Shown piece by piece: positions 38,652-61,242 of a DNA stretch of 64,000 bases. The first letter of the stretch is position 1, and the number at the start of each line of letters is the position of its first letter. The notes under the pieces were generated by a model. That model was not told where the DNA came from. It did not search any database and worked only from the letters and a program-made list of their open reading frames with translations. Source of the stretch: Clostridia bacterium (GTDB taxonomy: Bacteria > Bacillota > Clostridia > Christensenellales > Aristaeellaceae); the NCBI GenBank assembly GCA_017470145.1, contig JAFUFB010000002.1, forward strand, positions 17,186 to 81,185, given 5' to 3'. The translations under genes were made by a program, and so were the position numbers.

Positions 38652-38692
38652 TGGACTTTACTGGACATTTGTTGGACAAAGGGGGATACATT
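38652..38692 (+). promoter_or_regulatory. TGGACA-repeat promoter P1 (triple repeat)
   Basis: TGGACT (38652), TGGACA (38662) and TGGACA (38673), with 10- and 11-bp periods; -10 TACATT at 38687-38692, 19 bp after the second repeat unit. It would drive the MATE-NRPS operon. Within the gap 38508-38860 it is followed by a sortase remnant and hairpin repeat copy B. Confidence 0.75.
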
Positions 38693-38708
38693 AACCGTTT
38701 GTGTAGGC

Positions 38709-38762
38709 AGTGAGACGGAGCGCCGGGTGGTGGCGGCCAGGCGCATCAGGGACGGCAAGTAG
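38709..38762 (+). pseudogene. 3'-terminal remnant of a class B sortase gene
   Basis: Eighteen codons read S-E-T-E-R-R-V-V-A-A-R-R-I-R-D-G-K-stop. They match the end of the intact sortase at 61330 (EESRRVVAARRLREG), including the catalytic-Arg region just after its active Cys. The rest of the gene is missing; the fragment begins 16 bp after the -10 of P1. A hairpin repeat follows the stop. Confidence 0.65.
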
Positions 38763-38771
38763 GAAAAGACA

Positions 38772-38808
38772 GACGAAAACTTCCCCGAGGAGGGGGGAGG
38801 GAGAAAAC
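38772..38808 (+). repeat. Post-gene hairpin repeat, copy B
   Basis: GACGAAAACTTCCCC ... GAGAAAAC frame shared with 22315-22352; the stem is less perfect here. It begins 9 bp after the stop of the sortase remnant, the same distance as copy A from its gene. Confidence 0.5.
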
Positions 38809-38860
38809 CCTGCGTTTGACCTTTACGCGCCATGAATGAACGACTAAGGAAGAGAAGACT

Positions 38861-40228
38861 GTGAAACGGATTCAATTATCAGACCATTTTACCTGCGGGA
38901 AGATACTGCTGTTCGCCCTGCCCAGCATCGGCATGCAGATTGTGGACAACACCTATCAGATCGCGGATGGATACTTTATTTCCAACTACATCGGCGAGGC
39001 GGCCTTCGAGGCGGAGAACCTGATTTTTCCGCCGCTGCTGATCATCATGTATGTGGGGCTCATGTTCGGCACCGGCGCCAGCGCCCTGATTTCCCGGGAG
39101 CTGGGGGAGGGAAGAAAAGCTGAAGCCAATCGGCTGCTGAGCCTGATTGCCGCCGTGCTGGCGGCGGTGGGGGTGGCGCTGTCCGCAGGGTTATACTTCC
39201 TGCTGCCTTCCATCGCCGGATGGGTGGGGGCGTCGGAAGCTCTGGCGCCGGACTGTGTTACCTACGGCCGGGTGCTGGCCTTCTTCATGCCCTTCCAGAT
39301 GCTCTCCATGGCCTTCCATCCGCTGCTGATTACAGCGGAGCGGCCGGGGCTGGGGTTGGCGACCACCCTGGCCAACGCGGCGGCTAATATCCTGCTGGAC
39401 TGGGCCTTCGTGGCCGGGTTTGGCTGGGGAATGCGTGGCGCGGCCATCGCCACCGGCCTCGCCTGGCTGGTCAGCGCGGTGATTCCCTTCGTGTATTTCG
39501 CAAGCCCGAAGCATGCCCTGCATTTTGCCCGCCCGAGGATGGATTTTGGCGCCCTGGGAAAGACCCTGTACAATGGCGCCTCCGAGATGGTGGATGCGGT
39601 GGCCTATGCCCTGGTGGCCCTGATCTTCAATCTGCAGATGCTGCGGTATCTGGGGGAAGCCGGTGTAGGAGCCTACGCGGTCAGCGAATATGTGGGCGGC
39701 CTGTTCTCAGCGGTGTTCTATGGCGTCAGCATGAGCATCGTGCCGGTGGTGGGCTATCATCTGGGCAAGAAGAATCTCCAGGAGCTGCACAGCCTGCGGC
39801 GGAACGGCTTCCTGCTGATGGGCGCCTTTGGCCTGGGGATGACCGGGCTGTGCCTGGCGCTGGCGGGATCCATCTCCCGAATCTTTGTGGGATACAATGA
39901 GGAGCTGACGGCTCTGGCCATCCGGGCGCTGCGGCTGGTTTCCTTCTCCTTCCTGCTGGGCGGGATTACTACCTACGCCTCCTCCTATTTCACCGGGCTG
40001 AATCAGGGATCGGCTTCCCTGATCATCGCCGTGGTGAAGGGCTTCGCGGGGCCTTTGGCGGCGGTGTGGCTGCTGCCCAGGCTGCTGGGGGCGGACGGCC
40101 TCTGGCTGGCCACGCCCCTGGCGGAGGTCCTGGCCTTGGGCGCGGTGGGCCTGTGCTTTCTGTGGTGGCGGAAGAGAGAAGACGAGAAAGTGCGGGAGGG
40201 CATCCCGGCGGAAGGAGAAGGACAATGA
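38861..40228 (+). CDS. MATE-family efflux transporter of the NRPS operon
   Basis: 455 residues with 12 predicted TM helices; N-terminus HFTCGKILLFALPSIGMQIVDNTYQIADGYFISNYIG is typical MATE. A GTG start at 38861 with AAGGAAGAG upstream. Its stop overlaps the NRPS start by 4 bp (ATGA), so the two are translated together; the simplest reading is that it exports the NRPS product. Expressed from the TGGACA-type promoter P1. A later ATG is possible as the start, but the GTG gives the complete first helix. Confidence 0.92.
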   Translation: MKRIQLSDHFTCGKILLFALPSIGMQIVDNTYQIADGYFISNYIGEAAFEAENLIFPPLLIIMYVGLMFGTGASALISRELGEGRKAEANRLLSLIAAVLAAVGVALSAGLYFLLPSIAGWVGASEALAPDCVTYGRVLAFFMPFQMLSMAFHPLLITAERPGLGLATTLANAAANILLDWAFVAGFGWGMRGAAIATGLAWLVSAVIPFVYFASPKHALHFARPRMDFGALGKTLYNGASEMVDAVAYALVALIFNLQMLRYLGEAGVGAYAVSEYVGGLFSAVFYGVSMSIVPVVGYHLGKKNLQELHSLRRNGFLLMGAFGLGMTGLCLALAGSISRIFVGYNEELTALAIRALRLVSFSFLLGGITTYASSYFTGLNQGSASLIIAVVKGFAGPLAAVWLLPRLLGADGLWLATPLAEVLALGAVGLCFLWWRKREDEKVREGIPAEGEGQ

Positions 40229-43200
40229 ATCGGACGATAATTCAAAAATTCCTGGACCAGGCAGAACAATCTCCGGACCGGGTGGCGTCGCTGGATATTC
40301 AGGGAGCCATGACCTATGGCCGGCTGAATCAGCTGTCCGCCCATTTGGCGGAACAGACGCTGGAACGCCTGGGAGGCCGGGAGCATCGGGGCCGGGTAGC
40401 CCTGCTGCTGCCCCGGACCAAGGCCTTCCTCCTGGCTCAGATCGCTGTGCTGCGGGCGGGCTGCGCCTTGGTGCCCATCGACGCGGAATATCCGGCGGAG
40501 CGGGTGCAAAGCATCCTGGAGGATGCGGACTGCGGGTTGTGCATAACCACGGAGGCCCTGGCGGGCAAGGCGGAGGGCTTCCCCACGCTGAAGATAGACG
40601 GCATCGAAGCCTTGGAGGAGAAGGAGATCACGTGGGAGGAAACCCTGGATCTTTCCGATCTGTCCGCGGAGGGGTGCCTGCTGTTCACCTCCGGCTCCAC
40701 CGGGAAGCCCAAGGGCGTGGTCCATCGGGTGGAGATGTTCAATTATCCCGAGGTGCTGGAGGGGCGGATTCCCCTGTCCCCTCAGACCCGGACCCTGTGC
40801 ATCGCGGGCTTCGGATTCGTGGCCAGCCTGTTGGATCTGGTGACACCCCTGGGCTGCGGGGGCAGCGTGTATATTGCGGGTGAGACGGAACGTAGGAATC
40901 TGGAAATGATCTATGAACTGCTGGGCAAGCGAGGGATCACCGGCATGTTCATGCCCCCTTCCATGTACAGCGTGCTGCGCCGGCTCCATGGCCGGCTGCC
41001 CCTGGAGTATGTGCTGTTGGCAGGGGAGAAGGTAAACCCCGAGGACACGGGGGAGGAAAACGTCTGGGAGCTGTATGGCTCCACGGAGGTTCCCGCCGTG
41101 CTGATGCATATCGCTGGCCAGGGCGGACCCGGGGCGCTGGGGAAGCCCTGTGCAGAGGTACAGGTCTGCCTGATGGATGAGGATGGAAACGCGATTCAGG
41201 TGCCGGGGCAGATTGGGGAGCTGTGGGTTTCCAGCCCCTATATGGCCCAGGGCTATAGCTGCCTGCCGGAGGAGACTGCACGGAAATTCGTGGACGCGGC
41301 CAGGGACGGCGAGGGTCGGATGGTGCGCACCGGGGATTATATGGCCTATGACGAGGAAGGCAACCTGATCTTCCACGGCCGGCAGGACCGGATGGTGAAG
41401 ATCAACGGATACCGAGTAGAGCTGGGAGAGATTGAGCAGGTCCTGCGGGAAAGCCAGGAAATCCAGGAGGCGGCGGTGGTTTCCGTCCGGGTCAACGGCG
41501 GGGAGAAGATCTGCTGCTACTACACCGGGGAGGAGGCTTCCCCCACGGCCCTGAAGGAAAAGCTGGGCCGGCGGTTGCCGGAATATATGATTCCGGAATT
41601 CTTCCTTCATCTGGAGGAACTCCCCCGGAACGATCGGAACAAGGTGGATTATCCCGCACTGCAGGCCCGGGAGATTGAGACGGAGGCCGGAACCTATGAG
41701 CCGCCGGCGAATGAGGCGGAGCAAAGGATCTGCCAGGCCTTCGGGAGCGCTCTGGGAATTGAGCGGGTCAGCGCCCTGGCGGATTTCTTCGAGCTGGGAG
41801 GCACCAGCCTCAGCGCCGCGATTCTGATCAGCGATCTGGAAGGGGAAGGCTGCAGCCTTTCCTTCCAGGATGTGTCCGCCCACCCGACGCCCCGGGAGCT
41901 GGCGGCTTTCCTGGCGGAAATCCAGGAAAATACCCTGCCGGCCATGGATCGGGAGGATTATCCCTTGACCCGGACCCAGATGGGTATCTATCTGGAGAGC
42001 CTGACGGGGGGCAGCGCCCAGACCTATTCCAGCCCCTATCTGGCCCGGGCGGGGGAGGGCATCACCGCGGAACAGCTGATTCAGGCGGCCCGGGCCGTAA
42101 TTCAGGCCCACCCTGCCATGAAATATATGATCAGGGTGAACGAAGCAGGCATGCCCCGGATGGCGCTGACGCCGGAGGCGCCGGTGGAGATTCCGGTCAT
42201 CGACGGCACGGAGGAAGGCCGGCTGGACTTCATGCGGGACTTTTATCCAGTGGTGCCGATGATGGAGGAGCTGCTGTTCCATCTGGCGGTATATCGGACG
42301 CCGGAGCGGTGCTATCTGGCCATGAAGATTCATCTGATCTTCTTCGACGGCACCTCCATCAGCCAGTTCATCGGGGAGATGAACCGGGCCCTGGCGGGGC
42401 AGCCCCTGCTGGGAGAGGCCTGCACTATTCAGCAGGCGGCCCTGCTGGAGGAGCGGCAGATGGCGGATGGTACCCACGAAAAGGCGAAGGAATATCATCT
42501 GCAGCTCTTCCGGGACGCGGAGGATGTGCCTGCCCTTTCCGGAGATCTGAATGGGCCTCTGACCCCTGGCGTGAGCCAAAACCTGCGCTATGAGCCCGGC
42601 ACCTTGACCGCGGAGCGGGTGAAGCTTTTCTGCGAACAGCAGCATATCTCCGAAAGCAGCTTCTTCCAGGGAGCCATGGCCTTGATGCTGGGGAAATACC
42701 TGAACAGTTCTCATGTGTCCTTTTCCACCGTGTATAACGGCCGCCCCCTGGCGGAGATGAAGCATACCATTGGCACGCTGATCAAGCGCATCCCCGTCTA
42801 TGGAAATTTGAGCAAGGATCAGCCGGTGGGGGATTTCCTGCGGGGCGTCAGTAAGCAGATCTTTACCACCATGGCCCATGATATCTACTCCTTCGACGAG
42901 GTGCTGAAAACCTGCCCCGTCAATGAGGATGTGGAGTTCATCTATCAGGGGGATTTATTTACAGATAATATGGGCGGAGGCGAAGCGCCCGCAAATATTC
43001 CTCTCCTCCAGGGCGACAAATGGTTCATGGAGCATTATCATACCGGCATGGTGACCGGATGCATGTCCATCCAGTTCTTCTGCACCGGCGGCCTGTACAA
43101 CATGACCATCGAATATCGTAATGAGAAATTCTCCGAAAAATGGGTGCGGCGCTTCGCCCAGGATCTGTTCACCACGGCGGAGCAGCTGATGACGGTCAAA

Positions 43201-46200
43201 TCCATTGGGCAGGTATCTCTGCTGACGGCGGAGGATCGGACTCAGCTGGCAAGCTTTAACGATACCTCCATGCCCATGGACTTCATCCCAGTGCAGGAGC
43301 AGATTCACCGCCAGGCCCTGGCCCAGCCGGACAAGAAGGCGGTTCAGGCCGCGGGAAGGGCCTTGACCTTCCGGGAGCTGGATGGGCTGAGCAGCTATGT
43401 GGCGGCCCGGCTGGCGAAGGCCGGCGTGGGGAGAGACCAGCTGGTGGGCGTGCTGCTGGACCGGAGCGGCTGGGCTTATGTGGCGGAAATCGGAATTCTG
43501 AAGGCAGGAGCGGCTTTCCTGCCCTTCATCCCGGAATACCCGGACGATCGGATCGATTTCTGCCTGGAGGACGGCGGCTGTCCGCTGCTGTTGACAGAAG
43601 AGAAACAAATTGAAGGCCGCAGCCTGGGCGGGAAGGGATATCAGATCCTGACCCTGGAGGAAATCTTCGAAACTGAAGCGCTGGAAAAGGTAGATCCCGG
43701 GGCCCATGCCGCTGAGGCGCTGAAAACGCGTACCGCCCCGGAGGACCTGGCCTACTGCATCTATACCTCCGGCTCCACCGGCCGGCCCAAGGGCGTCATG
43801 ATCGAGCACCGGAATCTGATGAATTATGTCCATCGTAACGAGAAATCCATCGAGATCATGCATTATGCCGCGCCGGGGCGGATCAACCTGGCCCTGGCCT
43901 CCTTCTCCTTCGATGTGTCGGTGGTGGAGGAATTTGTGCCCCTGTGCAACGGTAACACCGTGGTCATCGCTACGGAAGAGGAGATTCATGACCCGGCGGC
44001 CCTGGCCCGGTTGATCCAGGAGACCGGGGCCAACGGGATCACCTGCACGCCCACGTACCTCTTGAGCTTGCTGGAGATTCCGGAAAGCCGGGAGGCCATC
44101 CGCCAGCTGACCTTCTTCGACATCGGCGCGGAGGCCTTCCCCCGGCAGCTGTACGACCGGCTGCGGGAGCTGCGGCAGGACAGCGTGATCCTGAACGTGT
44201 ATGGACCCACGGAGTGCACCATGGGCTGCGCCGCGGCGCTGATGACCGGCGAGGAGCAGGTCACTGTGGGGCCGCCCATCGCCAATACCACCTTCTATGT
44301 GGCGGATTCCTTCGGTAAGGAGCTGCCGGTGGGGCTGAAGGGCGAATTGATCATCTGCGGCGATCAGGTGGGCCGGGGATATGTGAACCTGCCGGAAAAA
44401 AGCGCCGCCGCCTTCTTCACCCATGAGGGGCAGCGGGCTTACCACAGCGGCGACCTGGCGGCCTGGACGGAAGAAGGGGAGATTCGGATCTTTGGCCGAA
44501 TCGACAATCAGATCAAGCTGCGGGGCTTCCGAATCGAGCTGGACGAAATCGAGAAGGTCATGACGGAATTCCCCGGCGTGTCCAGCAGCGCAGCGGCGGT
44601 GCGGAAAGCCGGGGGCAGCGAATATCTGGCGGGATACTTCACGGGGAAGGAGCCCATCTCCACCGGGGAGATGAAGGCCTTCCTGCAGGAGAAGCTGCCG
44701 GAATACATGGTGCCGAACGTGCTGACCCAATTGGCGGAAATGCCCATGACCACCAATGGCAAGGTGAACCGGAAAGCCCTGCCGGAGCCGGATCTGCGGG
44801 AGCTGAAGGCTGAATATGTTCCGCCGGAAACCGAGACGGAGCAGCGGCTTTGCGCCGCCTTTGCCCGGACGCTGAAGGCGGAGGAGGACCAGGTGGGCCT
44901 GCTGGACGATTTCTTCGACCTGGGGGGCGACTCCCTGCGGGCCATGGTGGTGCTGGCGGAGGCCCAGATCGAAGGGCTGACCGCCGCGGATGTGTTCCAG
45001 CTGCGGACGCCGGGGGCCATCGCCAGGGAATTGGAGAAGCGGAGCCAAAAGGAAAGCTTGCCGGAGCGGGAAGCGAAGGCAAGGCTCGTGCCGCACGGCC
45101 TGTCCCCGCTGCAGCTGCAGATGATCGACAACCAGCTGTTCCGCCCCGGATCCACCATGTGGAGCAACATGCATTTCTTGGTCCGGTTCGGGGAGGAGGT
45201 GGAAGCGGATCGGCTTTGCGCGGCGGTGAACGCCGCCCTGCGGAACCATCCGGCCCTGTCCGTGGCTTTCTTCTTTGACGAGGAGAATGAGCTGCGCCAG
45301 GAATATCGGCCGGGGCTGCTGAAGGAGGTTCAGGTGCGGGATATCCTGCCGGAGACGGAGGACGCCTTGGGGGACATCCTGCTTTTGCCCTTCCATCGGA
45401 TTCTGAACGCTGGCCTGTGCAAGGTCAATGTGTTCCGGGGCCGGAAGGGGTGCTATCTCTTCATGGACGTACATCATCTGCTGATGGACGGGGGCTCCCT
45501 GGGGGTGGTGCTGGCGGATATCGTGAATGCCTATTTCGGCCGGGAGCTGAAGCCGGATTATTACTTCGCCATGCTGGCGGAGGCGGAAGCTCGGGCCGCG
45601 GAGGGCAGCACGGAGAAGGATCACGCCTGGTTCCGGCAGCACTATGGGGAGGAGGACTGGCGCAACATCGTGCCGCCGGACCACCAAAGCGATAACATCA
45701 ATCAGGCTGGGCGGGTGAAGCGGCTGTCCTTCACGGCGGAGCAGGTGGCGGAGGCGGAGAAATACTGGGGCGTTTCCCACTCCGTCATGGCCATCAGCGC
45801 GGGGCTCCTGGCCTTGTCCCGCTTTACCGGGGACCAGCATGTGATGATCAACTGGATTTTCAACAACCGGCTGGCGCCGGAGACGGAAAACGCGGTGGGC
45901 ATGCTGATTCGCAACCTGCCCGCCGCTGCCCGGATGGAGGACTTTTCCTCCCTGCGGGAACTGCTGCTCTCTGTGAAGGAGCAGGTGGCGGAGGGCATCG
46001 CTCACGCCAGCTGGGACTTCATGTCCGAAAGCCGGCAGGCGTATCTGAACGATTGCATGGAGGTGAATCTGCAGCTGGGAATCAATGGGGACGAGCTGGA
46101 CGCCCTGCCCCATGAGCAGATCGAGTTGACGGATGATTTCAGCGCCGCCGGGGCCCGGCTGGAGATGGAGCTGCTGGAGAATGAATTTGGCGACGGGGGC

Positions 46201-46317: not shown

Positions 46318-46384
46318 GAGGAGAGAATTCTCCTGAATATGAAGAAAATATTTTCAAAAATTTACGAAAACATGACATTTTTAC

Positions 46385-46415
46385 TGGACATTTATTGGAC
46401 ATCGGGTGCTATAGT
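46385..46415 (+). promoter_or_regulatory. TGGACA-repeat promoter P2
   Basis: TGGACA at 46385-46390 and 46396-46401; TATAGT at 46410-46415, 19 bp after the first unit. The leader to 46468 contains a small hairpin GCGGAAA/TTTCCGC (46429-46446). It drives the SH3 protein gene. Confidence 0.8.
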
Positions 46416-46467
46416 GGCTCCTGTACCCGCGGAAAATTGTTTCCGCAAAGAACGAGGAGGTTATTTC

Positions 46468-47076
46468 ATGAACAAACGGATTCTTTCCCTGGTGGCGGTC
46501 ATGGCTTTGATGATGACCATGTTCGCTTTTGCTACCCCGGCGTTTGCCCGCAGCGCGCCGACCTCTAATTATTACGCCTACTCCTTCTGCTCCAACGGAA
46601 AGGCCCTGAACGTGCGCAGCGGCCCCGGCAAGGAATATGACGTCATCGGCAAGATCCCCTACGGCGAGCAGCTGATGGTCTCCGAGAATTTGGGGAACGG
46701 CTGGGCCGAAATCTATTGGGGCAGCGTGCCCGGATTTGTGATGACCAGCCTGATCACGGATCAGCAGCCTGGCCCCTATGTGGCTCCCACCGTGCCCGCC
46801 GCTACTTCCGATAATCCCACGGCGGACGTGAATTACAACGCCCTGTTCCAGATTGCCAAGCAGGTGGAGCCCTATACCGTGACCCTGGTGGCTACCGCCA
46901 ACAGCAAGAACCTGGCGAACATCCGCTGGGCGCCCGATAAGAAATCCACTCTGCTGGACAGCGTGGTTTCCGGCACGGAGGGGACCATCATCGCCCAGCT
47001 GGGCAAGAACTGGTACCAGGTGCAGCTGCCCAGCGGCGCGGTGGGCTTTGTGAACACCGCCTATGTGCAGAAATAA
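46468..47076 (+). CDS. Secreted double-SH3-domain protein
   Basis: 202 residues. Signal peptide MNKRILSLVAVMALMMTMFAFATPAFA. Two bacterial SH3 repeats: about 35-95 (KALNVRSGPGKEYDVIGKIPYGEQLMV) and about 130-202 (NLANIRWAPDKKSTLLDSVVSGTEG ... GAVGFVNTAYVQK), joined by a Pro/Ala linker. Likely binds the cell wall outside the membrane. The start at 46468 follows CGAGGAGG; the frame runs upstream across the promoter and is ignored there. The next gene starts 38 bp later, probably the same transcript. Confidence 0.88.
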   Translation: MNKRILSLVAVMALMMTMFAFATPAFARSAPTSNYYAYSFCSNGKALNVRSGPGKEYDVIGKIPYGEQLMVSENLGNGWAEIYWGSVPGFVMTSLITDQQPGPYVAPTVPAATSDNPTADVNYNALFQIAKQVEPYTVTLVATANSKNLANIRWAPDKKSTLLDSVVSGTEGTIIAQLGKNWYQVQLPSGAVGFVNTAYVQK

Positions 47077-47792: not shown

Positions 47793-47823
47793 TGGACATT
47801 TATTGGACAGCCTTTGATAAAAT
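47793..47823 (+). promoter_or_regulatory. TGGACA-repeat promoter P3
   Basis: TGGACA at 47793-47798 and 47804-47809; TAAAAT at 47818-47823, spacing 19. Drives the STAS / degenerate HATPase / MATE-HATPase operon. Confidence 0.8.
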
Positions 47824-47895: not shown

Positions 47896-48192
47896 ATGAC
47901 CATCAACAAGACACAGAACGGGAACGCCCTGACCATCGCTCTGGAGGGCCGGCTGGACACCGTTACTTCCCCGGAATTGGAAAAGGAAGTGAAGGATTCC
48001 CTGGAGGCCGCGGAGACCCTGACCCTGGATTTCAGCAAGCTGGAGTACATTTCTTCCGCCGGACTGCGGGTGTTGCTGTCCGCTCATAAGACCATGAGCA
48101 AAAAAGGCGGCATGAAAATCACGAACGTCAATGAGATCGTGAAAGAAGTATTCGAAGTCACCGGATTTGCCGACATTCTGACCATTGAATAA
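47896..48192 (+). CDS. STAS-domain anti-sigma-factor antagonist (RsbV/SpoIIAA-like)
   Basis: 98 residues, a single STAS domain: TINKTQNGNALTIALEGRLDTVTSPELEKEV, then TLDFSKLEYISSAGLRVLLSAHKTM. The Ser pair at about 53-54 occupies the phosphorylation site that a RsbW-type kinase modifies and a PP2C phosphatase restores. SD AAAGGAGGA. First gene of the P3 operon, 12 bp before the next gene. Partners in the window: the PP2C at 53755, the RsbW-like kinase at 55059, and HATPase tails fused to MATE transporters. What the switch finally controls is unknown. Confidence 0.93.
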   Translation: MTINKTQNGNALTIALEGRLDTVTSPELEKEVKDSLEAAETLTLDFSKLEYISSAGLRVLLSAHKTMSKKGGMKITNVNEIVKEVFEVTGFADILTIE

Positions 48193-48204
48193 GAGGTGCG
48201 GCAA

Positions 48205-48810
48205 ATGAAAACAGATGTGATTGTAGTTTCCAGCAAGGGCGCCCAGATGGAAACGGCCCTCTCCCAGGTGGACAAGGTGATAGAGTACAAAGGGCTCACC
48301 GGGAAAAATGCCCTGCATCTGCGCCTGTTGGCGGAGGAAATGATGGGCATGATGCGCTCCATCACCGGGGAAACCGAGGGAAAATTCTGGATTGAAGACG
48401 AGGAGGACGTGTATCAGCTGCATCTGCAGGCGATCACACGCATGGACAGCAGCAAACGGCAACAGCTCCTGTCCGCCGCCAGCAGCGGGAAGAACGAGTC
48501 CGCCAGAGGGTTGATGGGCCGCCTGCGGGATTTCTTTGACCAGGGCGCGGATGAGGATGTGACATCTTTTTCCAGCTCTCTGCTATATCCTGAAATGTAT
48601 GAACATTCCTCCACGCCTTCGCTGGATTGGGAATGGTCCATGATGCGGTATGAAAGTGTTCTTTTCAATCGAATCAAGCAAGATGATACCGCGGCCAAAG
48701 AAGCCTGGGACGAGTTGGAGAAATCCGTGGTGGCGAAAGTCGCCGACGACGTGAAGGTATCCATCAAGGGCCGCATGGTGGAAATGATTATCGTGAAAAA
48801 GATGAACTAA
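48205..48810 (+). CDS. Degenerate RsbW-like HATPase protein
   Basis: 201 residues, cytoplasmic. The region KNALHLRLLAEEMMGMMRSITGE (about 32-54) resembles the N-box of anti-sigma-factor kinases, but the Asn that binds Mg-ATP is replaced by Met; no clear DxGxxFDP loop is visible. The middle is Ser/Gly/Lys rich, and the C-terminus (KVADDVKVSIKGRMVEMIIVKKMN) resembles the last strands of the fold. It probably keeps the fold for binding a STAS protein without ATP turnover. ATG at 48205 with AGAGGTG 7 nt upstream; a GTG at 48196 is possible. It lies between the STAS gene and the fusion transporter, 10 bp from the latter. Confidence 0.6.
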   Translation: MKTDVIVVSSKGAQMETALSQVDKVIEYKGLTGKNALHLRLLAEEMMGMMRSITGETEGKFWIEDEEDVYQLHLQAITRMDSSKRQQLLSAASSGKNESARGLMGRLRDFFDQGADEDVTSFSSSLLYPEMYEHSSTPSLDWEWSMMRYESVLFNRIKQDDTAAKEAWDELEKSVVAKVADDVKVSIKGRMVEMIIVKKMN

Positions 48811-48820: not shown

Positions 48821-50569
48821 ATGATACGAAAGCTGATCAAACAAATGCTGGCAGCGCAGACTCTGTCTGCGCTGACGGTATCTTTGTGCCTCCTGATCGA
48901 CAATATCATGATCGGGCGCTTCCTGGGCGTACAGGCCATCGCGGCTTACGGCCTGGCCAATCCGGTTTTGCTGGTGATTGGAGCTATTGGCAGCATGCTG
49001 ACCGCGGGCGTGCAGGTAGCCTGCAGCAAATCCCTGGGCAGCGGCTCCAAGGAGGAAACCGATAAGGGTTATTCCTCCGCCATCGGGCTGATGTTGGGTA
49101 TTTCGCTGGCGTTCACGCTGCTGGTGCTGCTTTTCCGTAACCCTTTGGCTACGGCCATGGGCGCGGGAAGCGAGGGAGAATTATACGACCAGACCCGGGA
49201 TTACCTGGCGGGCTTCATCATCGGTGCGCCGGCCACGATGGGGGCCCTGGCGCTGGTGCCATTTTTGCAGATGGCCGGGCAGAGCGGTCTGCTGATCGTG
49301 GCGGTGCTGGGCATGACCGTGGCGGATGTGGGCTTTGACCTGCTGAACGTGCTGGTATTCCATGGCGGCATGTTCGGTATGGGGCTGGCTTCCTCCCTCA
49401 GCTACTATGTAGCGATGGCGATCGCCATGGGGTACTTCCTCTCCAAGAAATGTGTGTTCAGGTTTTCCATGAAGCTCATTTCCCGGGAGAAGATTAAAGA
49501 GCTATTCGTGGGTGGCGTACCCACCGTGGTCGGCATGGCGGCCTCCGTGGTACTGGTGTTCGTCCTCAACAAAATCCTGCTGAACGTAGGCGGAAGTGAG
49601 GCGGTAGCGGCCTATTCCGTGCTGATGACCATCGGCAATGCCAGCAACTGCATCTCCACTGGCGTAGGCGGTGTGTCGCTGACGCTGTCCGGCATCCTGT
49701 ATAACGAAGAGGATCGGACGGGACTGCGGGAACTGTTGAAGCTGCTTGTCCGCTATGCGGTGATGCTGGGCGTAGCCGTTGGGGCGCTGCTCATCGCCTT
49801 TGCGCCCGTCCTGGTGGGAATCTTTATCCCGGAGACTGGTGCGGCGCAGAACATGGCTATCCTGGGCGTGCGGCTGTTCGCCCTGGGGCTGCTCTTCTGC
49901 TGTGTGAACAACGCGCTGAAGAGCATGTATCAGGGGACGGAAAGGGTCGTGCTGATGGAAATCATTTCCGCGCTGGAAGGCGCGGCGCTGCCCGCTCTGT
50001 GCGCGTGGCTGGGGAGCCTGGTGTGGGGCGTCACCGGCGTTTGGCTGTATTTTGTGCTGGGCGAAAGCCTGACCCTGCTTCTGACCGCGCTGTATGTGTG
50101 GAAGAAAAACGGGGGTATCACCCTGAAGGCCGCGCCCTTTTTGCTGCTGAAACAGGATTTCGGCGTGCAGAAGGAAAACCTGCTGGAGATGGATCTTCAT
50201 TCCATCGACGAGGTCGTGTCCGCCGCGGAGCAGGCGCAGCGTTTCTGCCGCCAGCATGGGCAAAGCGAAAAAACGGCCAATCACATCGCCCTGTGCGTGG
50301 AGGAAATGGCCAGCAACACGGTGCTGCATGGATTTGAAAAGGGTAAGAACAATCACCTGTCCATTCGCATCCAGCACAAGGAAAACAGGTGGACGCTGCG
50401 CTTCCGGGATGATTGCCGAGCCTTTGACCCGGTAAGCTATACGCCGAAGGATACGCAGGACGCGCTGGGCATCCGGGTAGTCATGGCCATGGCGGACGAT
50501 ATTCGATACACCTATTCCCTGAACCTGAACAACCTGACGATCAAGCTGTCGCCCAAAGCAACTAATTAA
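48821..50569 (+). CDS. MATE transporter fused to a C-terminal RsbW-like HATPase domain (fusion 1)
   Basis: 582 residues. About 1-440: MATE fold with 12 TM helices (ALTVSLCLLIDNIMIGRFLGVQAIAAYGLANP at the N-terminus). About 455-580: anti-sigma-type HATPase_c_2 domain with N-box CVEEMASNTVLHGFEKG, loop RFRDDCRAFDP and ALGIRVVMAMADDIRY. In the ATP loop the usual DxG is DDC, the Gly being replaced by Cys. It lies in the P3 operon directly after STAS and degenerate HATPase genes. Inference: a membrane transporter or sensor whose tail joins a partner switch, possibly phosphorylating or sequestering the STAS protein. The SD is weak. Confidence 0.9.
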   Translation: MIRKLIKQMLAAQTLSALTVSLCLLIDNIMIGRFLGVQAIAAYGLANPVLLVIGAIGSMLTAGVQVACSKSLGSGSKEETDKGYSSAIGLMLGISLAFTLLVLLFRNPLATAMGAGSEGELYDQTRDYLAGFIIGAPATMGALALVPFLQMAGQSGLLIVAVLGMTVADVGFDLLNVLVFHGGMFGMGLASSLSYYVAMAIAMGYFLSKKCVFRFSMKLISREKIKELFVGGVPTVVGMAASVVLVFVLNKILLNVGGSEAVAAYSVLMTIGNASNCISTGVGGVSLTLSGILYNEEDRTGLRELLKLLVRYAVMLGVAVGALLIAFAPVLVGIFIPETGAAQNMAILGVRLFALGLLFCCVNNALKSMYQGTERVVLMEIISALEGAALPALCAWLGSLVWGVTGVWLYFVLGESLTLLLTALYVWKKNGGITLKAAPFLLLKQDFGVQKENLLEMDLHSIDEVVSAAEQAQRFCRQHGQSEKTANHIALCVEEMASNTVLHGFEKGKNNHLSIRIQHKENRWTLRFRDDCRAFDPVSYTPKDTQDALGIRVVMAMADDIRYTYSLNLNNLTIKLSPKATN

Positions 50570-50598: not shown

Positions 50599-50629
50599 TG
50601 GACATTTATTGGACAAAGTGTGCAATACT
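50599..50629 (+). promoter_or_regulatory. TGGACA-repeat promoter P4
   Basis: TGGACA at 50599-50604 and 50610-50615; AATACT at 50624-50629, spacing 19. Drives the secreted protein at 50710 and possibly the genes to 58.4 kb. Confidence 0.75.
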
Positions 50630-53713: not shown

Positions 53714-53754
53714 TAAGCAGACGCGGCGAAACCTCGCAAAGCAGGATCAGTAAA

Positions 53755-55062: not shown

Positions 55063-55472
55063 AGGAGCTGACGTTAGCGGCCATGCTGGACAATATCCCC
55101 GTGGTGACGGCATTTGTGGATGAACAGCTGGAGACGCTAAGCTGCCCCATGAAGGCGCAGATGCAGATCGACGTGGCCATCGACGAACTATTCGGCAATA
55201 TTGCCCACTACGCCTATCCGGGCGGTAAGGGCAATGCGACTGTACGCTTTGATTTTGACGAAACGACGCGCACAGTGTCTATCACATTTATCGACAGCGG
55301 CATCCCTTTTGATCCCTTGCAAAAGGCTGACCCGGATGTAACCGTTTCCGCGGAGGAACGTGAAGTAGGGGGCCTTGGCATCTTCATGGTCAAGAAGACC
55401 ATGGACAGAATCAATTACCAATATGAAAATGGATGTAATATCCTGATGATTCAAAAGCAACTTACGAACTGA
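55059..55472 (+). CDS. Stand-alone RsbW/SpoIIAB-like serine kinase
   Basis: 137 residues, a complete HATPase_c_2 domain with canonical motifs: N-box VAIDELFGNIAHYAYPGG (Asn about 47), G1 FIDSGIPFDPL, G2 VGGLGIFMVKKTMDRINYQY. The start at 55059 overlaps the phosphatase stop and has AAAGGAGGGG upstream. It should phosphorylate the STAS antagonist and/or bind a target. Unlike the transporter-fused tails it keeps the DxG loop. No sigma factor gene is adjacent, so the target may be a non-sigma partner. Confidence 0.93.
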   Translation: MKELTLAAMLDNIPVVTAFVDEQLETLSCPMKAQMQIDVAIDELFGNIAHYAYPGGKGNATVRFDFDETTRTVSITFIDSGIPFDPLQKADPDVTVSAEEREVGGLGIFMVKKTMDRINYQYENGCNILMIQKQLTN

Positions 55473-55589
55473 TGGCGGCGCTTTAAAAGCGAGCAATATA
55501 TGGAAAGTTGATGAAAAAGCATACGCCTGAAAAAGCAGGAAAAACGGACATGAATCTCGTGAGCAAATAGATGAGGAGAAAAGCCTCTG

Positions 55590-57365
55590 ATGCAGAAAAG
55601 CAGGATCATCAGGAATACATTTTATATACAGCTGTCAGCCTATATTATTTCTGAACTGACACACATGATAGGTAACATTGTCGATGGTGTGATCATCGGA
55701 AGATACCTTGGCGTTGACTCGATGGCGGCATTCGGCATCGTGAGCCCGATCATGGTGGTTTTCGCGCTGATAGGAGCTATCGTCCAAACGGGTTCCAGGA
55801 ATCGTTTCACAAGATTGCTGGGCGAAGGGAAGACGAAGGAAGCACAGCAGGTTTTCTCACTTTCCTTCCTTTTATCGATCATTTTTGGCGTGGCCCTTAT
55901 GATCGTGATTCTGATTTTTTCCACGCCGATCACGATTGCTCTTGGCGCATCCGGTCATGCAACAGATCTTCTTCCCAAGGCGAGATCATATCTCATAGGG
56001 ATATCATTCGGCCTTCCCGCAATAAATGCCATGAAGATACTTCATGGATTCCTCCCCATAGATAATGACAGACGGCTCCCGATGCTGTCATCTTTGGCGC
56101 TCACTGTCTCAGATATCATTTTAGATCTGATTGCTGCATTCGTTTTACATGGCGATACGTTGGAAATGGGTGTCGCAACCAGCGTAAGCTATTATGTGGC
56201 ATTCACGGTGCTTCTTCTCCATTTCAGAAAGAAAAATATAGTTCTGAAGATATCCGCAAAGCGTCTCCCTTGGAAGGAGCTTCCGGGAATCATCATTCAG
56301 GGGATTCCGATAGGGATATGTCTCATTAGCTTTACTGTCAGAGTAGCTTTCATGAACCAGATACTTGCAAGTGTTGCTGCAGCGCCGGCCATTGCGGCCT
56401 ATTCCATCTATCAGCAGGCGGATGATATCCTTTGCTGTCTCACCATTGGCATGGCGGATACGGTGGCTGTGATTGCTGGTATTTTGATGGGAGAAGAGGA
56501 CAGACCAAAGATGAAAAGGCTGCTCTTTACATCCGTTCAGGCCACGCTCCTCATTACGCTCGGCGCAGCAGTTATGTGCTGGTTTGCAGCGCCGCATTTC
56601 TGTTCCCTGTATATTCAAGGTAGCGCTGAGGCATATGCCTATGCAACAAGGGCGGTAAGAACGTATGCTGTGGGAATGCCCTTATATGGTCTGAGCCTTA
56701 TCTATTTCAACTATTTTCAAGGGATCGGGCGAAGCAGATTGTCTTCGGTCTGCGGTTTTTTATCAGAGGCCGGATTCCTGATGCTGTCTGCATTTGTGAT
56801 GTCGCGCTTTTTTAGGGCAGATGCGGTATGGTTTTCGCTTGTCGTCACGCAGATATTAATGTATATCCTCTACGCAGGGATCATTGCCGTGGAAAGCAGG
56901 CGTAATGGTACGCAAGAGATGAGCCTTTGGGATCGGGTTTTGTTACTTCCTTCGACATTTGATGTTCCAGAGGAGGATCGCATTGATTTATCCATCTCAT
57001 CCAAGGAAGAAGTAGTAAGCCTTTCGAACGATGTTTATAGCTTCTGTGAGTCCCATGGCTGCGACAAGAGAAGAACTTGTCATATGTCGCTTGCAGTTGA
57101 AGAGATGGCAGGGAATGTAATACAGCATGGATTTCCACATGATAACAGGAAACACAGTGTGGAGATTCGTGTGTTGAAGAAGGGGGAAGAGTATGTCCTC
57201 AGAATACGGGATGACTGTTTCATATTCGATCCCGTAGGTCAGCTTACAATGTATACCGATGAGGATAAGATCCATCACATCGGACTTCGGATGACTATTT
57301 ATATGTCGAAGGATGTAAGATACACCAGCATATTGAAGCTGAATAATCTCCTTGTGCGGATATAA
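55590..57365 (+). CDS. MATE transporter fused to a C-terminal RsbW-like HATPase domain (fusion 2)
   Basis: 591 residues. MATE part about 1-450 (FYIQLSAYIISELTHMIGNIVDGVIIGRYLGVDSMAAFG), HATPase tail about 465-590 with N-box LAVEEMAGNVIQHGFPHD, loop RIRDDCFIFDP and HIGLRMTIYMSKDVRY. The tail shares the DDC-x-x-FDP variant with fusion 1, so both form one subfamily. Base and codon use (more ATA, AGG, AGA and T/A-rich codons) differ from surrounding genes, suggesting separate acquisition. It follows the RsbW-like gene by 117 bp; that gap contains only a possible 19-codon ORF at 55511-55570 and the SD GAGGAG. Confidence 0.9.
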   Translation: MQKSRIIRNTFYIQLSAYIISELTHMIGNIVDGVIIGRYLGVDSMAAFGIVSPIMVVFALIGAIVQTGSRNRFTRLLGEGKTKEAQQVFSLSFLLSIIFGVALMIVILIFSTPITIALGASGHATDLLPKARSYLIGISFGLPAINAMKILHGFLPIDNDRRLPMLSSLALTVSDIILDLIAAFVLHGDTLEMGVATSVSYYVAFTVLLLHFRKKNIVLKISAKRLPWKELPGIIIQGIPIGICLISFTVRVAFMNQILASVAAAPAIAAYSIYQQADDILCCLTIGMADTVAVIAGILMGEEDRPKMKRLLFTSVQATLLITLGAAVMCWFAAPHFCSLYIQGSAEAYAYATRAVRTYAVGMPLYGLSLIYFNYFQGIGRSRLSSVCGFLSEAGFLMLSAFVMSRFFRADAVWFSLVVTQILMYILYAGIIAVESRRNGTQEMSLWDRVLLLPSTFDVPEEDRIDLSISSKEEVVSLSNDVYSFCESHGCDKRRTCHMSLAVEEMAGNVIQHGFPHDNRKHSVEIRVLKKGEEYVLRIRDDCFIFDPVGQLTMYTDEDKIHHIGLRMTIYMSKDVRYTSILKLNNLLVRI

Positions 57366-57402
57366 TACTCGTAAATTATTCTATAGTGAGGAGAGTAATC
57401 AC

Positions 57403-57528
57403 ATGATGGAATTGCGCTTTTCAACATGGCTGAACGAAATCGCCGTGAAATACGGTGATCTCCCGACGATTACATGCGAACAAATGGTTACCTATACTAA
57501 TGTGCGATTCATGAGAAGGCGAGGGTGA
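57403..57528 (+). pseudogene. 5' remnant of an AMP-binding (acyl-CoA synthetase/adenylation) gene
   Basis: 41 codons with SD GAGGAG 8 nt upstream. The sequence RFSTWLNEIAVKYGDLPTITCEQMVTYTN resembles the first 35 residues of adenylating enzymes (residues up to the YGDxPAI...LTY signature) and then stops. The following hydrolase starts 3 bp after its stop. It is either a translated leader fragment or a truncated gene. Confidence 0.45.
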
Positions 57529-57530
57529 GC

Positions 57531-58367
57531 ATGAAAATTGAAACCGTAAAAACAGAAGTCTTTTCGATGAATTACTGCCGGTTCGGGCAAGGAAAGGCAA
57601 AGCTGGTCATCGTCCCGGGGCTTAGTGTTCAGAGTGTCCTGGGTTTTGCCAAAGCCATTGAGAAATCCTACCAGGCGCTTGCAGATGACTTTACAATTTA
57701 TGTGTTGGATCGTAGAAACGAGCTTCCAGAACCCTACACCGTGCTGGAGATGGCAGAGGACACGGCAATCGCCCTACAGGCGCTTGGACTTGGCTCGGTA
57801 TGCCTGTTTGGTGCGTCTCAGGGCGGAATGATCGCCATGAAGGTCGCCGCGGATCATCCGGAATTGGTCAAGGGGCTGGTCCTTGGCTCTACATCAGCAC
57901 AAGTGACTGAAACGCTGTATTGTCAGGTATTTAAAGGCTGGGCGGATATCGCCAGGGCCGGGAACGCGATGGCGCTCTACCTGGTGTTCGGAGAAGCGAT
58001 TTACCCCACGCTTGTGTTTGAACAATCACGGCAGGTGCTTCTGGAAGCTGCAAAGTCCGTGACTGAGGAGGAGCTATACCGCTTTGCCATCCAGGCGGAG
58101 GGTATGAAGGGCTTTGATATCCGGGAGGATTTGAAGAAAATTGCTTGTCCTACACTGGTGCTGGGCTCCAGGGATGATCAGGTTTTGGGCGGAGAGGCGT
58201 CTGTACAGATAGCGGAGCGAATACAGGATTGCGAGCTCTATATGTACGACGGCTATGGTCATGCGGTCTATGATCTCGCACCGGATTACAGGGAACGCAT
58301 GAAGCGGTTTATCTTCAGCAAGCATCTTTATGGTCAAGAGGACGATGGACAGAATCTGTATCAATGA
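57531..58367 (+). CDS. Alpha/beta hydrolase
   Basis: 278 residues, cytoplasmic. Oxyanion region IVPGLSVQS near 28, nucleophile elbow FGASQGGM near residue 98, Asp in LGSRDDQVLG near 220, His in GYGHAVYD near 245: the usual order of the triad. Closest in style to proline iminopeptidase/esterase-type hydrolases. Start at 57531 preceded by GAGGGTGAGC; a GTG at 57525 is possible. Substrate unknown; a role in releasing or editing an acyl or peptide product is only a guess from the nearby NRPS and adenylation remnant. Confidence 0.82.
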   Translation: MKIETVKTEVFSMNYCRFGQGKAKLVIVPGLSVQSVLGFAKAIEKSYQALADDFTIYVLDRRNELPEPYTVLEMAEDTAIALQALGLGSVCLFGASQGGMIAMKVAADHPELVKGLVLGSTSAQVTETLYCQVFKGWADIARAGNAMALYLVFGEAIYPTLVFEQSRQVLLEAAKSVTEEELYRFAIQAEGMKGFDIREDLKKIACPTLVLGSRDDQVLGGEASVQIAERIQDCELYMYDGYGHAVYDLAPDYRERMKRFIFSKHLYGQEDDGQNLYQ

Positions 58368-58565
58368 TTGCTGCATCGCACCAAGCAGCTCTTTCGCACT
58401 CGGGAAGCTTTATTACTCCAAATTTCCGACGCTTCATCATGTGATTTCGAGCTGGGCAAAGCACTCATGGATCACTTCATATCTATAAAAAAGCCATTAA
58501 CACTACTTGACGAGGCGATTCGATTTGCAGAAAATGCCGAATTTTTTATCATCACCTGCATCTGA
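58368..58565 (+). pseudogene. Probable gene-end remnant, shared with 61124-61196
   Basis: The reading frame from a TTG directly after the hydrolase stop ends ISIKKPLTLLDEAIRFAENAEF. The same C-terminal motif, IKKPLIPLDESIQYAENAKF, is encoded at 61125-61196. The conserved frame suggests a real protein tail now lacking its front. It makes up most of the gene-free stretch 58368-58691, whose remainder is promoter P5. Confidence 0.35.
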
Positions 58566-58596
58566 TATTGGACATTTGTTGGACAGCCTTTGATAT
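58485..58596 (+). repeat. Duplicated about 110-bp segment, copy 1 (includes the P5 repeats)
   Basis: Matches 61124-61239 at most positions by eye, from ATAAAAAAGCCATTAA through GATATTGGACATTTGTTGG to the shared -10 start. Copy 1 precedes the PreA-like gene. Confidence 0.8.
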
Positions 58597-58599
58597 CAT
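58569..58599 (+). promoter_or_regulatory. TGGACA-repeat promoter P5
   Basis: TGGACA at 58569-58574 and 58580-58585; TATCAT at 58594-58599, spacing 19. Drives the PreA-like/L,D-transpeptidase operon. Confidence 0.8.
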
Positions 58600-58691
58600 A
58601 AACTAAAACTGGCGGTTCAAGGATGGATTCCTTTCGCCGCCGAACAGGCAGAACAACCCAATGATGCTATCAGCTGAGAGGAGGCTTCCGC

Positions 58692-60197
58692 ATGATCCGG
58701 ATAGATCAGACAATCACCCGCGCGGATATGATCCGCTGCGCCCTGTGTGCCGACGCCCCCTGCGACAGGGCTTGCGAAAAACTGGCCCCGACGGGATTGC
58801 TGCGCTCTGTTTGGTTTTCCAATGAGCAAACAGCGGCGCTGCGGCTGCCGGAGGGAAATCCCTGCCTTACTTGCGGCGCTCCCTGTGAGCAGGCTTGCGT
58901 CCGGGCGGGGGAGGTGCCCATCAGGGATTTGGTCAATCGCTTGTATGATCAGGTGAAGCCCGACTGCGAAACGCCGCTGCCGGAAAATGAAGATCGTTTG
59001 CAATGTGACCTGTGCGGCATCCCGCTGGAAAATCCCTTCCTGCTTTCTTCCTCCGTGGTGGCCAGCACCTACGATATGTGCGCTCGGGCCTTTGAAGCGG
59101 GCTGGGCCGGGGCTTGCTTCAAGACCATCTGCACCCTGGATATTCACGAAGCCTCGCCCCGCTTTTCGGCCATCAGCGGCAGCGACGGCGGCATCATCGG
59201 CTTTAAGAACATCGAGCAGCTTTCCGACCACAGCGTGGCGGAGAACATGGAGATCTTCCGCCGACTGAAAAAGAATTACCCCACCAAATTCATCCTGGCC
59301 TCCATCATGGGACAAAACGAAGCGGAATGGGGCGAGCTGGCGCGGCTTTGCCAGGAGAACGGCGCGGACGCGGTGGAGCTGAATTTCTCCTGCCCCAACA
59401 TGGCCGAGGGCGGTCTGGGCAGCGATATCGGGCAGGTGCCGGAACTGGTGGAGCGCTTCACCCGGGCAGCGAAGCAAGCCTGTTCCATTCCTGTGCTGGC
59501 CAAGCTGACGCCCAACGTGGCGAATATGAGCCCGGCGGCCGAGGCTGCCAAACGCGGCGGTGCGGATGGCCTTGCTGCCATCAACACCATCAAATCCATC
59601 GTGGGCATCAACCCGCACACTTATGTGTCCGCTCCCGCTGTGCACGGACACAGTGCCGTGGGCGGCTACAGCGGCAATGCGGTGAAGCCCATCGCCCTGC
59701 GTTTCATCGCGGAGCTGGGCCAGAATCCTGCCTTGCAGGGGATGCATCTGTCCGCCATGGGCGGCATCGAAACCTGGCGAGATGCGCTGGAATTTATCCT
59801 GCTGGGGGCGGGCTCCATCCAGGTGACCACCGCCGTGATGCAGTACGGCTATCGGATCATCGACGATCTGAAAGCGGGACTCAACCTGTATCTGACGGAA
59901 AAAGGCTTCCATAGCGTCAAGGAAGCGATGGGCTTGGCCCTGGATTCTCTCAGCCCCACCACGGACACCCTGGAGCGGGATACGGTCATCTTCCCGAAGT
60001 TCAACCGGGAGCGCTGCATCGGCTGTGGGCGCTGCCAAATCTCTTGCGCGGACGGCGGGCATCAGGCCATCCGGCTGGACGAAAACCGCCATCCCAAGCT
60101 GAACGGAAAGCAATGTGTGGGCTGTCACCTGTGCGTGCTGGTGTGCCCCCAGCGGGCCATTATCTCCGGTACTAAACGGATTCATCGCAATCAATAA
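58692..60197 (+). CDS. PreA-like dihydropyrimidine dehydrogenase family protein with extra N-terminal Fe-S region
   Basis: 501 residues. The N-terminal about 95 residues are Cys-rich (CALCADAPCDRAC ... CLTCGAPCEQAC), like the Fe-S entry domain of PreT/GltD-type partners. About 105-415: dihydroorotate-dehydrogenase-like TIM barrel with LENPFLLSSSVVASTYDM, VELNFSCPNM, LAKLTPNVANM and SAMGGIETW. C-terminus (about 437-485): two 4Fe-4S ferredoxin motifs, CIGCGRCQISC and CVGCHLCVLVC. Expected role: NAD(P)H- or ferredoxin-linked reduction of pyrimidines or a related flavin reaction. First gene after P5; its link with an envelope regulon is unexplained. Confidence 0.88.
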   Translation: MIRIDQTITRADMIRCALCADAPCDRACEKLAPTGLLRSVWFSNEQTAALRLPEGNPCLTCGAPCEQACVRAGEVPIRDLVNRLYDQVKPDCETPLPENEDRLQCDLCGIPLENPFLLSSSVVASTYDMCARAFEAGWAGACFKTICTLDIHEASPRFSAISGSDGGIIGFKNIEQLSDHSVAENMEIFRRLKKNYPTKFILASIMGQNEAEWGELARLCQENGADAVELNFSCPNMAEGGLGSDIGQVPELVERFTRAAKQACSIPVLAKLTPNVANMSPAAEAAKRGGADGLAAINTIKSIVGINPHTYVSAPAVHGHSAVGGYSGNAVKPIALRFIAELGQNPALQGMHLSAMGGIETWRDALEFILLGAGSIQVTTAVMQYGYRIIDDLKAGLNLYLTEKGFHSVKEAMGLALDSLSPTTDTLERDTVIFPKFNRERCIGCGRCQISCADGGHQAIRLDENRHPKLNGKQCVGCHLCVLVCPQRAIISGTKRIHRNQ

Positions 60198-60212
60198 AAG
60201 GAGAGGAACAAG

Positions 60213-60941
60213 ATGAAAAAAATGATCGTGCTATTTCTTCTGGTATTCGTTCTGATCTGCGGCGCTGCCCTGGCGGAGGATGGCCTGCACGCCTCCATCC
60301 AGCAAACGGTGGAATCTCCGGAATGGGTCAAGGCGCTGCCCGCCGCTCAGGATGAAAACGTAAAGCAGCTATTCGTCGTGGCCGGATTCAGCATGGACAG
60401 CACCGCCGCCAGCATTTCCCTGCATCAGCGGGATGAAAACAGTCAATGGCAGCGCGTCCTTTCCACGCCGGGCTTCGTGGGAAAAAACGGCCTGTGCCTG
60501 GACGCTGATCACGTGGAAGGCTGCGGTCAAACGCCCATTGGTACCTATCATTTCACCGCTGCCTTCGGTATCGCGGAAGATCCCGGATGCCAGATGCCCT
60601 ATCTTCAGGTGGACGACGACATCTACTGGTCCGGCGATTTTGACCGCTCTTACAACGAAATGGTGCGGCTCAGTGAGGTGCCCGAGCTGAATATGGAAAA
60701 CAGCGAGCACATCGTAGATTACGAATACCAGTATCAGTACTGCCTGAACATCAGCTTCAACGAGGAGGGCACGCCAGGCCGAGGTTCCGCCATCTTCCTG
60801 CATTGCCTGGGGCCGGAAAAGCCCTGGACAGGCGGCTGCGTAGCCATCCCGGAAAACATTATGAAGCAGGTGATGCAGCGGGTGCAGTCGGATTGCGTTG
60901 TGGTGATCGACACCATGGAAAATCTGAACATCAGCTTTTGA
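60213..60941 (+). CDS. Secreted L,D-transpeptidase (YkuD-type)
   Basis: 242 residues. Signal peptide MKKMIVLFLLVFVLICGAALAE. The YkuD catalytic pattern appears as FLHCLGPEKPWTGGCVAIPE, with His near 197 and the nucleophilic Cys near 209 in a TGGC context in place of the more common SHGC. The N-terminal half holds QTPIGTYHFTAAFGI, the substrate-strand typical of the family. Such enzymes make 3-3 peptidoglycan cross-links or attach proteins to the wall. SD AAAGGAGAGG; 15 bp after the PreA-like gene. The last codons are duplicated at 52290-52348. Confidence 0.87.
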   Translation: MKKMIVLFLLVFVLICGAALAEDGLHASIQQTVESPEWVKALPAAQDENVKQLFVVAGFSMDSTAASISLHQRDENSQWQRVLSTPGFVGKNGLCLDADHVEGCGQTPIGTYHFTAAFGIAEDPGCQMPYLQVDDDIYWSGDFDRSYNEMVRLSEVPELNMENSEHIVDYEYQYQYCLNISFNEEGTPGRGSAIFLHCLGPEKPWTGGCVAIPENIMKQVMQRVQSDCVVVIDTMENLNISF

Positions 60942-60987
60942 TCAAGGAGAAGGATGACGTCTCCATGGAATATCAATGGGACGAAGG

Positions 60988-61149
60988 ATGAATAATAGCA
61001 CAGAAGATAAATCTGATCCCGGCGAGCAAAGAGGAGTAAATAGATTTAAACAAGTCATACGAGATTCAAAGTACTCTGAACAGATTAAACATAATCTTTT
61101 GCTTCCGACAAATGAATTACAGGATAAAAAAGCCATTAATACCACTTGA
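60988..61149 (+). CDS. Possible small protein (53 aa)
   Basis: ATG after GACGAAGG, reading MNNSTEDKSDPGEQRGVNRFKQ and ending KKAINTT. Charged, no membrane segment, not recognised. Its end overlaps the duplicated segment in a different frame from the conserved IKKPL tail, so it may be fortuitous. Apart from this and promoter P6, I see nothing in the gap 60942-61329. Confidence 0.25.
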   Translation: MNNSTEDKSDPGEQRGVNRFKQVIRDSKYSEQIKHNLLLPTNELQDKKAINTT

Positions 61150-61239
61150 CGAGTCGATTCAATATGCAGAAAATGCCAAATTTATTTTTTAACATTACCG
61201 GCATCTGATATTGGACATTTGTTGGACAGCCTTTGATAG
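61124..61239 (+). repeat. Duplicated about 110-bp segment, copy 2 (includes the P6 repeats)
   Basis: Counterpart of 58485-58596. It ends upstream of the sortase gene. The TGGACA-repeat block and the 20 bp before it are identical in the two copies. Confidence 0.8.
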
Positions 61240-61242
61240 ATT
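61212..61242 (+). promoter_or_regulatory. TGGACA-repeat promoter P6
   Basis: TGGACA at 61212-61217 and 61223-61228; TAGATT at 61237-61242, spacing 19. Drives the sortase and surface-protein genes. Confidence 0.75.

Follow-up and report, generated by a model that had tools for sequence, protein, structure and literature searches.

A direct-repeat promoter box in gut Clostridia as the probable operator of a two-component regulator with SARP-like promoter geometry

The stretch of DNA analysed here (the window: 64,000 nucleotides, C24:17186-81185 of a Clostridia assembly of 2.45 Mb that is 84% complete) contains six exact copies of a direct repeat, TGGACA-N5-TGGACA, henceforth the box. All six are in forward orientation, all are intergenic (intergenic DNA makes up 8.8% of the window; this fraction and the identity of the first gene after each box depend on simple gene calling) and each is followed at exactly 8 bp by a -10-like hexamer, as the initial annotation had described. 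It had further noted no normal -35 at 17 bp in any of the promoters and no copy in the first 38 kb, and both statements hold: the first TGGACA does match TTGACA at five of six letters, yet at 19 bp, and zero copies with up to three mismatches to TGGACATTTRTTGGACA were found in the first 38 kb. Five of the six promoters carry an extended -10 (TG one base 5′ of the hexamer). The boxes precede the operons that had been named, with one amendment: the L,D-transpeptidase gene is second in its operon, behind a DHOD-like/4Fe-4S gene.

Chance does not account for the six boxes: the mean in 100 dinucleotide shuffles of the window was 0.01. When two mismatches were tolerated the excess became weak (10 in the window against 4.78 expected), so it is the exactness of the repeats that carries the signal. 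A scan of the entire genome returned 11 exact boxes (six in the window, one on contig C1, one on C11 and three on C27) and a reversed-pattern control returned none; TANNNT follows at +8 in 10 of the 11, the remaining site having AATACT, and the TG extension is likewise present at 10. Allowing two mismatches added two weaker candidates, one oriented divergently from the C11 site. Random scatter of the motif, which had been named in advance as grounds for abandoning it, is ruled out by this control and by its counterpart in the family, where the strict pattern (box plus -10) was found in 38 of 300 genomes and the reversed pattern in none. What does need widening is the TTTRT spacer with which the box had been defined; this is too narrow for the genome as a whole, since the three C27 sites read TGGACATWTGATGGACA.

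The three C27 boxes lie around a cluster whose products include a leader peptide of the Nif11 type, a radical-SAM protein and two NHLM export ABC transporters. Adjoining it are the genes for a response regulator, assigned by its Pfam domains, and a sensor kinase. An orphan regulator of the OmpR family had been suggested for the box; the best candidate is instead this protein, which lies on another contig and adjoins its own kinase gene, as is typical of a two-component pair. Open reading frame searches of relatives’ box loci recovered homologues of both regulator and kinase in many loci. In a scan of named genomes, restricted to the best 80 of at least 549 loci (nearly all from metagenome-assembled genomes, many with ruminant-gut titles, plus one strain, LC2019), the kinase has a homologue in 66 of 80; neighbour counts are best matches among 21 query proteins, and those for ABC transporters and kinases may include relatives. 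In LC2019 (record L180) regulator and kinase genes are both present, with a box 7 bp past the regulator stop codon. A single regulator of the C27 type was seen in the genome itself. Its PF00486 match is weak and partial (27.5 bits against a cut-off of 26.2, covering profile positions 8-62 of 77), and all 48 orthologues match both PF00072 and PF00486 at E≤1.

The presence of the regulator tracks that of the box. A search of the family at 1e-20 gave matches in 116 of 300 genomes, which fall into close orthologues and a second set of distinctly weaker paralogues. We counted a close orthologue in 55 genomes, mostly at 250 bits or more (G211, G252, G275 and G283 are partial matches of over 50% identity). 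Such an orthologue is present in 33 of the 38 box genomes and in 22 of the 262 box-less ones (Fisher p=4e-24). The order-level comparison, comprising 297 genomes, identified the box in 10 of them, seven of these in other families, with one match (G300) for the reversed control. Six of these seven have a close orthologue, compared with none of 37 box-less controls hand-chosen from the same four families (p=1e-6); the seventh, G424, has a weak paralogue only and an odd spacer.

The promoter geometry follows the regulator as well. A search of the family that made no demand on the -10 returned 108 sites, distributed over 64 of the 300 genomes; its reversed control gave about 32 matches, so chance sites are present among the 108. 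Of the 64 sites from genomes that have the regulator, 41 show TANNNT at offset 8 (any other offset from 0 to 18 accounts for 0-8), with the TG of an extended -10 peaking at offset 5 (33/64); in genomes without the regulator the figure at offset 8 is five of 44. The strict sites, 64 distinct sequences from many genera, have the TG extension in 46 instances and, in 55, a purine (mostly G) 7 nt 3′ of the -10, which is likely the start site. In three loci (L052, L061 and L071) boxes are paired divergently at a distance below 100 bp and serve genes in both directions.

The boxes might be supposed to be copies of a dispersed repeat or of a duplicated promoter cassette, with no common regulator. Over roughly 100 bp the DNA upstream of promoters 58569 and 61212 is recognisably similar, a likeness by which the two are related through duplication, so the six promoters are not all independent; and the C11 box (C11:197772, locus L034) is followed by an apparently broken STAS start (ATG ATC ATC AAC CAG TAA), which looks like a sign of promoter-gene duplication and decay. 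Beyond the box and the -10, however, the remaining window promoters are unlike one another, and across the 64 strict sites just the box, the -10 and the start-site purine are conserved. Altered boxes, described below, moreover keep the geometry and follow regulators with altered helices. We regard a cassette as highly improbable.

Regulator and box are also connected by linkage. Among 119 distinct regulators 118 had enough downstream DNA to be scored for a box; for this scoring letters 5 and 6 of both repeats were masked. A box lies between -60 and +420 of the regulator stop codon in 59 of the 118 (median 67), with scores between 5 and 15 empty; the cut-off of 15 was set after this gap had been seen. 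In these 59 the recognition region and the box covary. Arg following Tyr-Asp pairs with GGAC in 52 of 53 instances and Tyr or His at the same helix position pairs with GGAA or GGAT in six of six (overall p=1.6e-7): Arg-or-not agrees with C-or-not in 58 of 59. An earlier threshold of 26.4, the 99th percentile of background windows and itself inflated by true boxes, had given 12/1/0/4 (p=0.002). Ile/Val regulators, whose TGGATG-type boxes lie further off, were excluded from the count. A quick tree, built with the helix residue masked, shows three independent changes, each of them concordant. Of 20 regulator loci lacking the exact motif, many have altered boxes of the same geometry, for example TGGAAATCTGATGGATA and TGGATATTGGATGGATG, and these altered-letter boxes follow regulators with altered helices.

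Comparison of sequences shows the box, its geometry, its co-occurrence with the regulator, their linkage and the helix-box covariation. On these grounds the box very probably serves as operator for a single two-component response regulator, in this genome C27:198330-199136; genes for peptides, the cell surface and signalling in gut Clostridia would be under its positive control.

A number of observations weigh against this interpretation. The other 59 of the 118 regulators score below 5, that is, they are boxless in the stretch searched, and many of the loci later scored had contributed sites to the training of the weight matrix. One regulator, L118, is the sole clear misfit of the helix rule, combining Arg with TGGATA/TGGGTG; a phylogenetic sign test on the three changes gives p=0.25, with 0.05 out of reach for so few. 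Five of the 38 box genomes (G010, G105, G141, G282 and G295) are without a close orthologue, and G282 is 96% complete. Lastly, window spacers are TTTRT and those beside the C27 regulator WWTGA: given this difference and an assembly that is 84% complete, a further paralogue, missing from the assembled part, could act on the window boxes. The idea of a spacer code was rejected, as the five spacer letters fail to sort cleanly by recognition-helix subtype.

The same spacer difference could be taken to mean that another winged-helix protein binds the box and that the C27 regulator is a passenger or paralogue. The genome has eight PF00486 matches, and candidates exist in six classical OmpR-type regulators and one full BTAD protein, encoded on C14 (C14:39426-40088; L032:613-1809, reverse strand). 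The latter, the only BTAD protein of the genome, combines a winged helix, BTAD and a GGDEF-like tail and is, judged by its domains, a real SARP-type protein in a member of the Clostridia; SARP promoters have exactly the geometry seen here. The C14 protein was nonetheless rejected as the regulator: it is without a close homologue in the fetched box loci, where it gives only a 16-bit match to a response regulator. The C27 type, in contrast, adjoins boxes in many genomes, its co-occurrence with the box holds within the family as well as beyond it, and in relatives the same regulator subtype adjoins TTTGT boxes. That some other winged-helix protein is responsible seems improbable to us.

OmpR/PhoB-family regulators such as PhoP of Bacillus (TTAACA repeats) and PhoB of E. 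coli bind direct repeats of 11-bp period in place of the -35, and PF06580 kinases are the usual partners of LytTR regulators. The initial annotation had assigned the box to an OmpR-family regulator on the basis of such repeats, and the winged-helix class is supported by our comparisons: the C27 protein shares with that family a receiver plus Trans_reg_C and a box with repeats of 11-bp period replacing the -35. It differs in its weak, partial PF00486 match, in a conserved extra C-terminal tail of ~45 aa, in a kinase of the PF06580 rather than HisKA type and in a profile apparently nearer to SARPs. LytTR is absent from the Pfam families found in the 48 orthologues, and BTAD (PF03704) was detected at E≤1 in none of them. 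Aligned with hhalign, the profile of the DNA-binding part matched a small set (six Streptomyces plasmid SARPs and the C14 protein) with a probability of 64% (E 6.6e-5, 24% identity, 108 columns) and an equally modest set of three local OmpR-type regulators with a probability of 3.5% (E 0.012). The domain thus appears to compare better with SARPs of the AfsR type than with the local OmpR regulators, both sets being small; against solved structures matches were weak (best E 0.0075).

SARP promoters contain direct repeats with a period of 11 or 22 bp, the 3′ repeat lying 8 bp from the -10 and the 5′ copy overlapping the -35, and AfsR occupies a 22-bp afs box centred at -29.5 on the Streptomyces afsS promoter (PMC10936776). 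On this description the geometry of our promoters corresponds to the published SARP arrangement rather than to that of Bacillus PhoP: repeats of 11-bp period, 8 bp to the -10, and a predicted centre at about -29 versus -29.5 for the afs box (PMC10936776). An OmpR-type winged helix and antibiotic-type targets (here NRPS and RiPP genes, for nonribosomal peptide synthetases and ribosomally synthesised, modified peptides) are further shared features. In the Clostridia, however, the winged helix follows a receiver, the regulator has its own kinase and the tail described above in place of a detectable BTAD, and targets include surface and partner-switch genes. Since the geometry is that of SARPs, the profile appears nearer to theirs and BTAD is undetected, the regulator is best described as SARP-like: by these features it would work like a SARP yet is not a member. 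In open-access PMC titles and abstracts we found no description of the box, nor of a receiver plus SARP-type regulator in Clostridia.

The genes behind the boxes recur. We scanned 1.65 Mb of loci selected for boxes or regulators and obtained 162 distinct boxes with scores above 18, compared with none in reversed sequence. The first genes past 149 of these encode the regulator (14), STAS (11), SH3 (9) and double-glycine peptide (9) proteins, a large secreted repeat protein (8), a DUF3592-like protein (8), the kinase (4) and others, with 39 singletons; the same families stand behind boxes in different genera. Neighbours of the regulator in the 80 named loci include STAS (14), DUF3592 (15), double-glycine peptide (16) and L,D-transpeptidase (7) genes. 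These recurring families, together with co-occurrence, support the earlier proposal of an unlisted regulon joining the window genes (Table 1). Because relatives’ boxes also precede the regulator and kinase genes, the circuit probably feeds back on itself.

Table 1. Boxes and genes of the window, and the candidate regulator and kinase on contig C27
Feature	Position	Strand	Remarks
Box TGGACATTTGTTGGACA	38662..38678	+	-10-like TACATT at 38687-38692; precedes MATE gene 38861 and NRPS gene
MATE-family transporter (PF01554)	38861..40228	+	First gene past box 38662
NRPS, 2035 aa	40210..46317	+	Two adenylation (AMP-binding), two condensation, two carrier stretches; overlaps end of MATE gene
Box TGGACATTTATTGGACA	46385..46401	+	Extended -10 TGC-TATAGT; precedes SH3-domain gene 46468
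Secreted SH3 protein	46468..47076	+	Family is first gene past boxes in 9 loci
Box TGGACATTTATTGGACA	47793..47809	+	Extended -10 TGA-TAAAAT; precedes STAS gene 47896
STAS protein (anti-anti-sigma type)	47896..48192	+	First gene past boxes in 11 loci
204-aa protein	48196..48810	+	Zero Pfam matches; homologues in 8/80 and 9/40 fetched loci
MATE transporter with C-terminal HATPase_c_2 (RsbW-like)	48821..50569	+	Domain match
Box TGGACATTTATTGGACA	50599..50615	+	Extended -10 TGC-AATACT; precedes secreted-protein gene (ORF 50674 or ATG 50710)
Secreted protein, 484 aa	50674..52128	+	Zero Pfam matches
Box TGGACATTTGTTGGACA	58569..58585	+	Extended -10 TGA-TATCAT; precedes DHOD-like/4Fe-4S gene 58692 and L,D-transpeptidase 60213
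DHOD-domain protein with 4Fe-4S domains	58692..60197	+	Domain match
L,D-transpeptidase (YkuD)	60213..60941	+	Domain match
Box TGGACATTTGTTGGACA	61212..61228	+	Extended -10 TGA-TAGATT; precedes sortase gene 61330
Sortase-family protein	61330..62262	+	Domain match
Response regulator, 269 aa	C27:198330-199136		Receiver plus OmpR-fold winged helix
Sensor kinase	C27:199136-200443		PF06580 plus HATPase_c; directly upstream of regulator gene

The NRPS, directly 3′ of the MATE gene, is of two-module size. Two MATE transporters of the window, that in Table 1 and a second at 55590-57365, end in an HATPase_c_2 domain resembling RsbW/SpoIIAB, and their genes adjoin those for STAS, HAMP-SpoIIE phosphatase and RsbW-like proteins; a literature search on MATE-HATPase-STAS systems found nothing pertinent. 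The partner switch of the window may act on a transporter rather than on a sigma factor. The presence of STAS, HATPase_c_2 and SpoIIE phosphatase genes also permits a different explanation, namely that the box acts as -35 in promoters read by an alternative sigma factor under the control of this switch, and the near-match of the first repeat to TTGACA at 19 bp might be read in the same way. A pair of identical repeats spaced by one helical turn, however, is no sigma element; the -10, a TANNNT preceded by the TG extension, is housekeeping-like rather than of a non-housekeeping kind; and the box goes together with a response regulator and with the sequence of its helix. Judged from promoter sequences and from this association, there is very little likelihood that the box is such an element.

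If the box is the operator of the C27 regulator, then the adjoining kinase would phosphorylate this protein, two copies of which would then sit next to each other on the TGGACA pair, at a distance of one helical turn. Given a start 7 nt past the -10, the repeats would span about -37 to -21, with their centre near -29, and by analogy with the AfsR complex the housekeeping RNA polymerase would be recruited to an extended -10 lacking a usable -35. The regulon would comprise, in the window, the MATE/NRPS, SH3, STAS/MATE-kinase, oxidoreductase/L,D-transpeptidase and sortase operons and, on C27, the Nif11/NHLP-type peptide cluster with its export ABC transporters.

The signal may be a peptide. The known peptide-pheromone circuits that control bacteriocins (Blp, Pln, Com) use LytTR regulators, and most pheromones are not known to be strongly conserved past the leader. 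The system described here resembles them in its kinase and regulator beside a double-glycine peptide and a peptidase-containing ABC exporter, in direct-repeat operators and in its presumed self-activation; it differs in that the regulator is without LytTR and the peptide is strongly conserved past the leader. In the family found past boxes (for example L035:18720-19106, reverse strand) the conserved mature part reads LGVYRPGF...ESLxFFRxCVG.... A speculative scheme, which we think more likely wrong than right, is a three-part peptide circuit of gut Clostridia: NHLM-type ABC transporters would export a double-glycine peptide with a leader ending in ...LSxDQLExVSGG and a conserved mature part, the kinase would sense this peptide, and the regulator, with its SARP-like promoter mode, would activate the peptide, NRPS products and a partner-switch module in which an RsbW-like kinase is fused to MATE transporters.

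For the gut Clostridia, which are abundant and little studied, these analyses offer a putative pair of operator and regulator, with a box that can be read and a candidate specificity residue, the Arg at position 183. The box alone would flag co-regulated genes, including NRPS and RiPP clusters and the unusual MATE-kinase fusions. If the proposed mechanism is true, SARP-style activation, in which sigma region 4 rests on two side-by-side activators, would reach from the Actinomycetes to a two-component regulator of the Clostridia.

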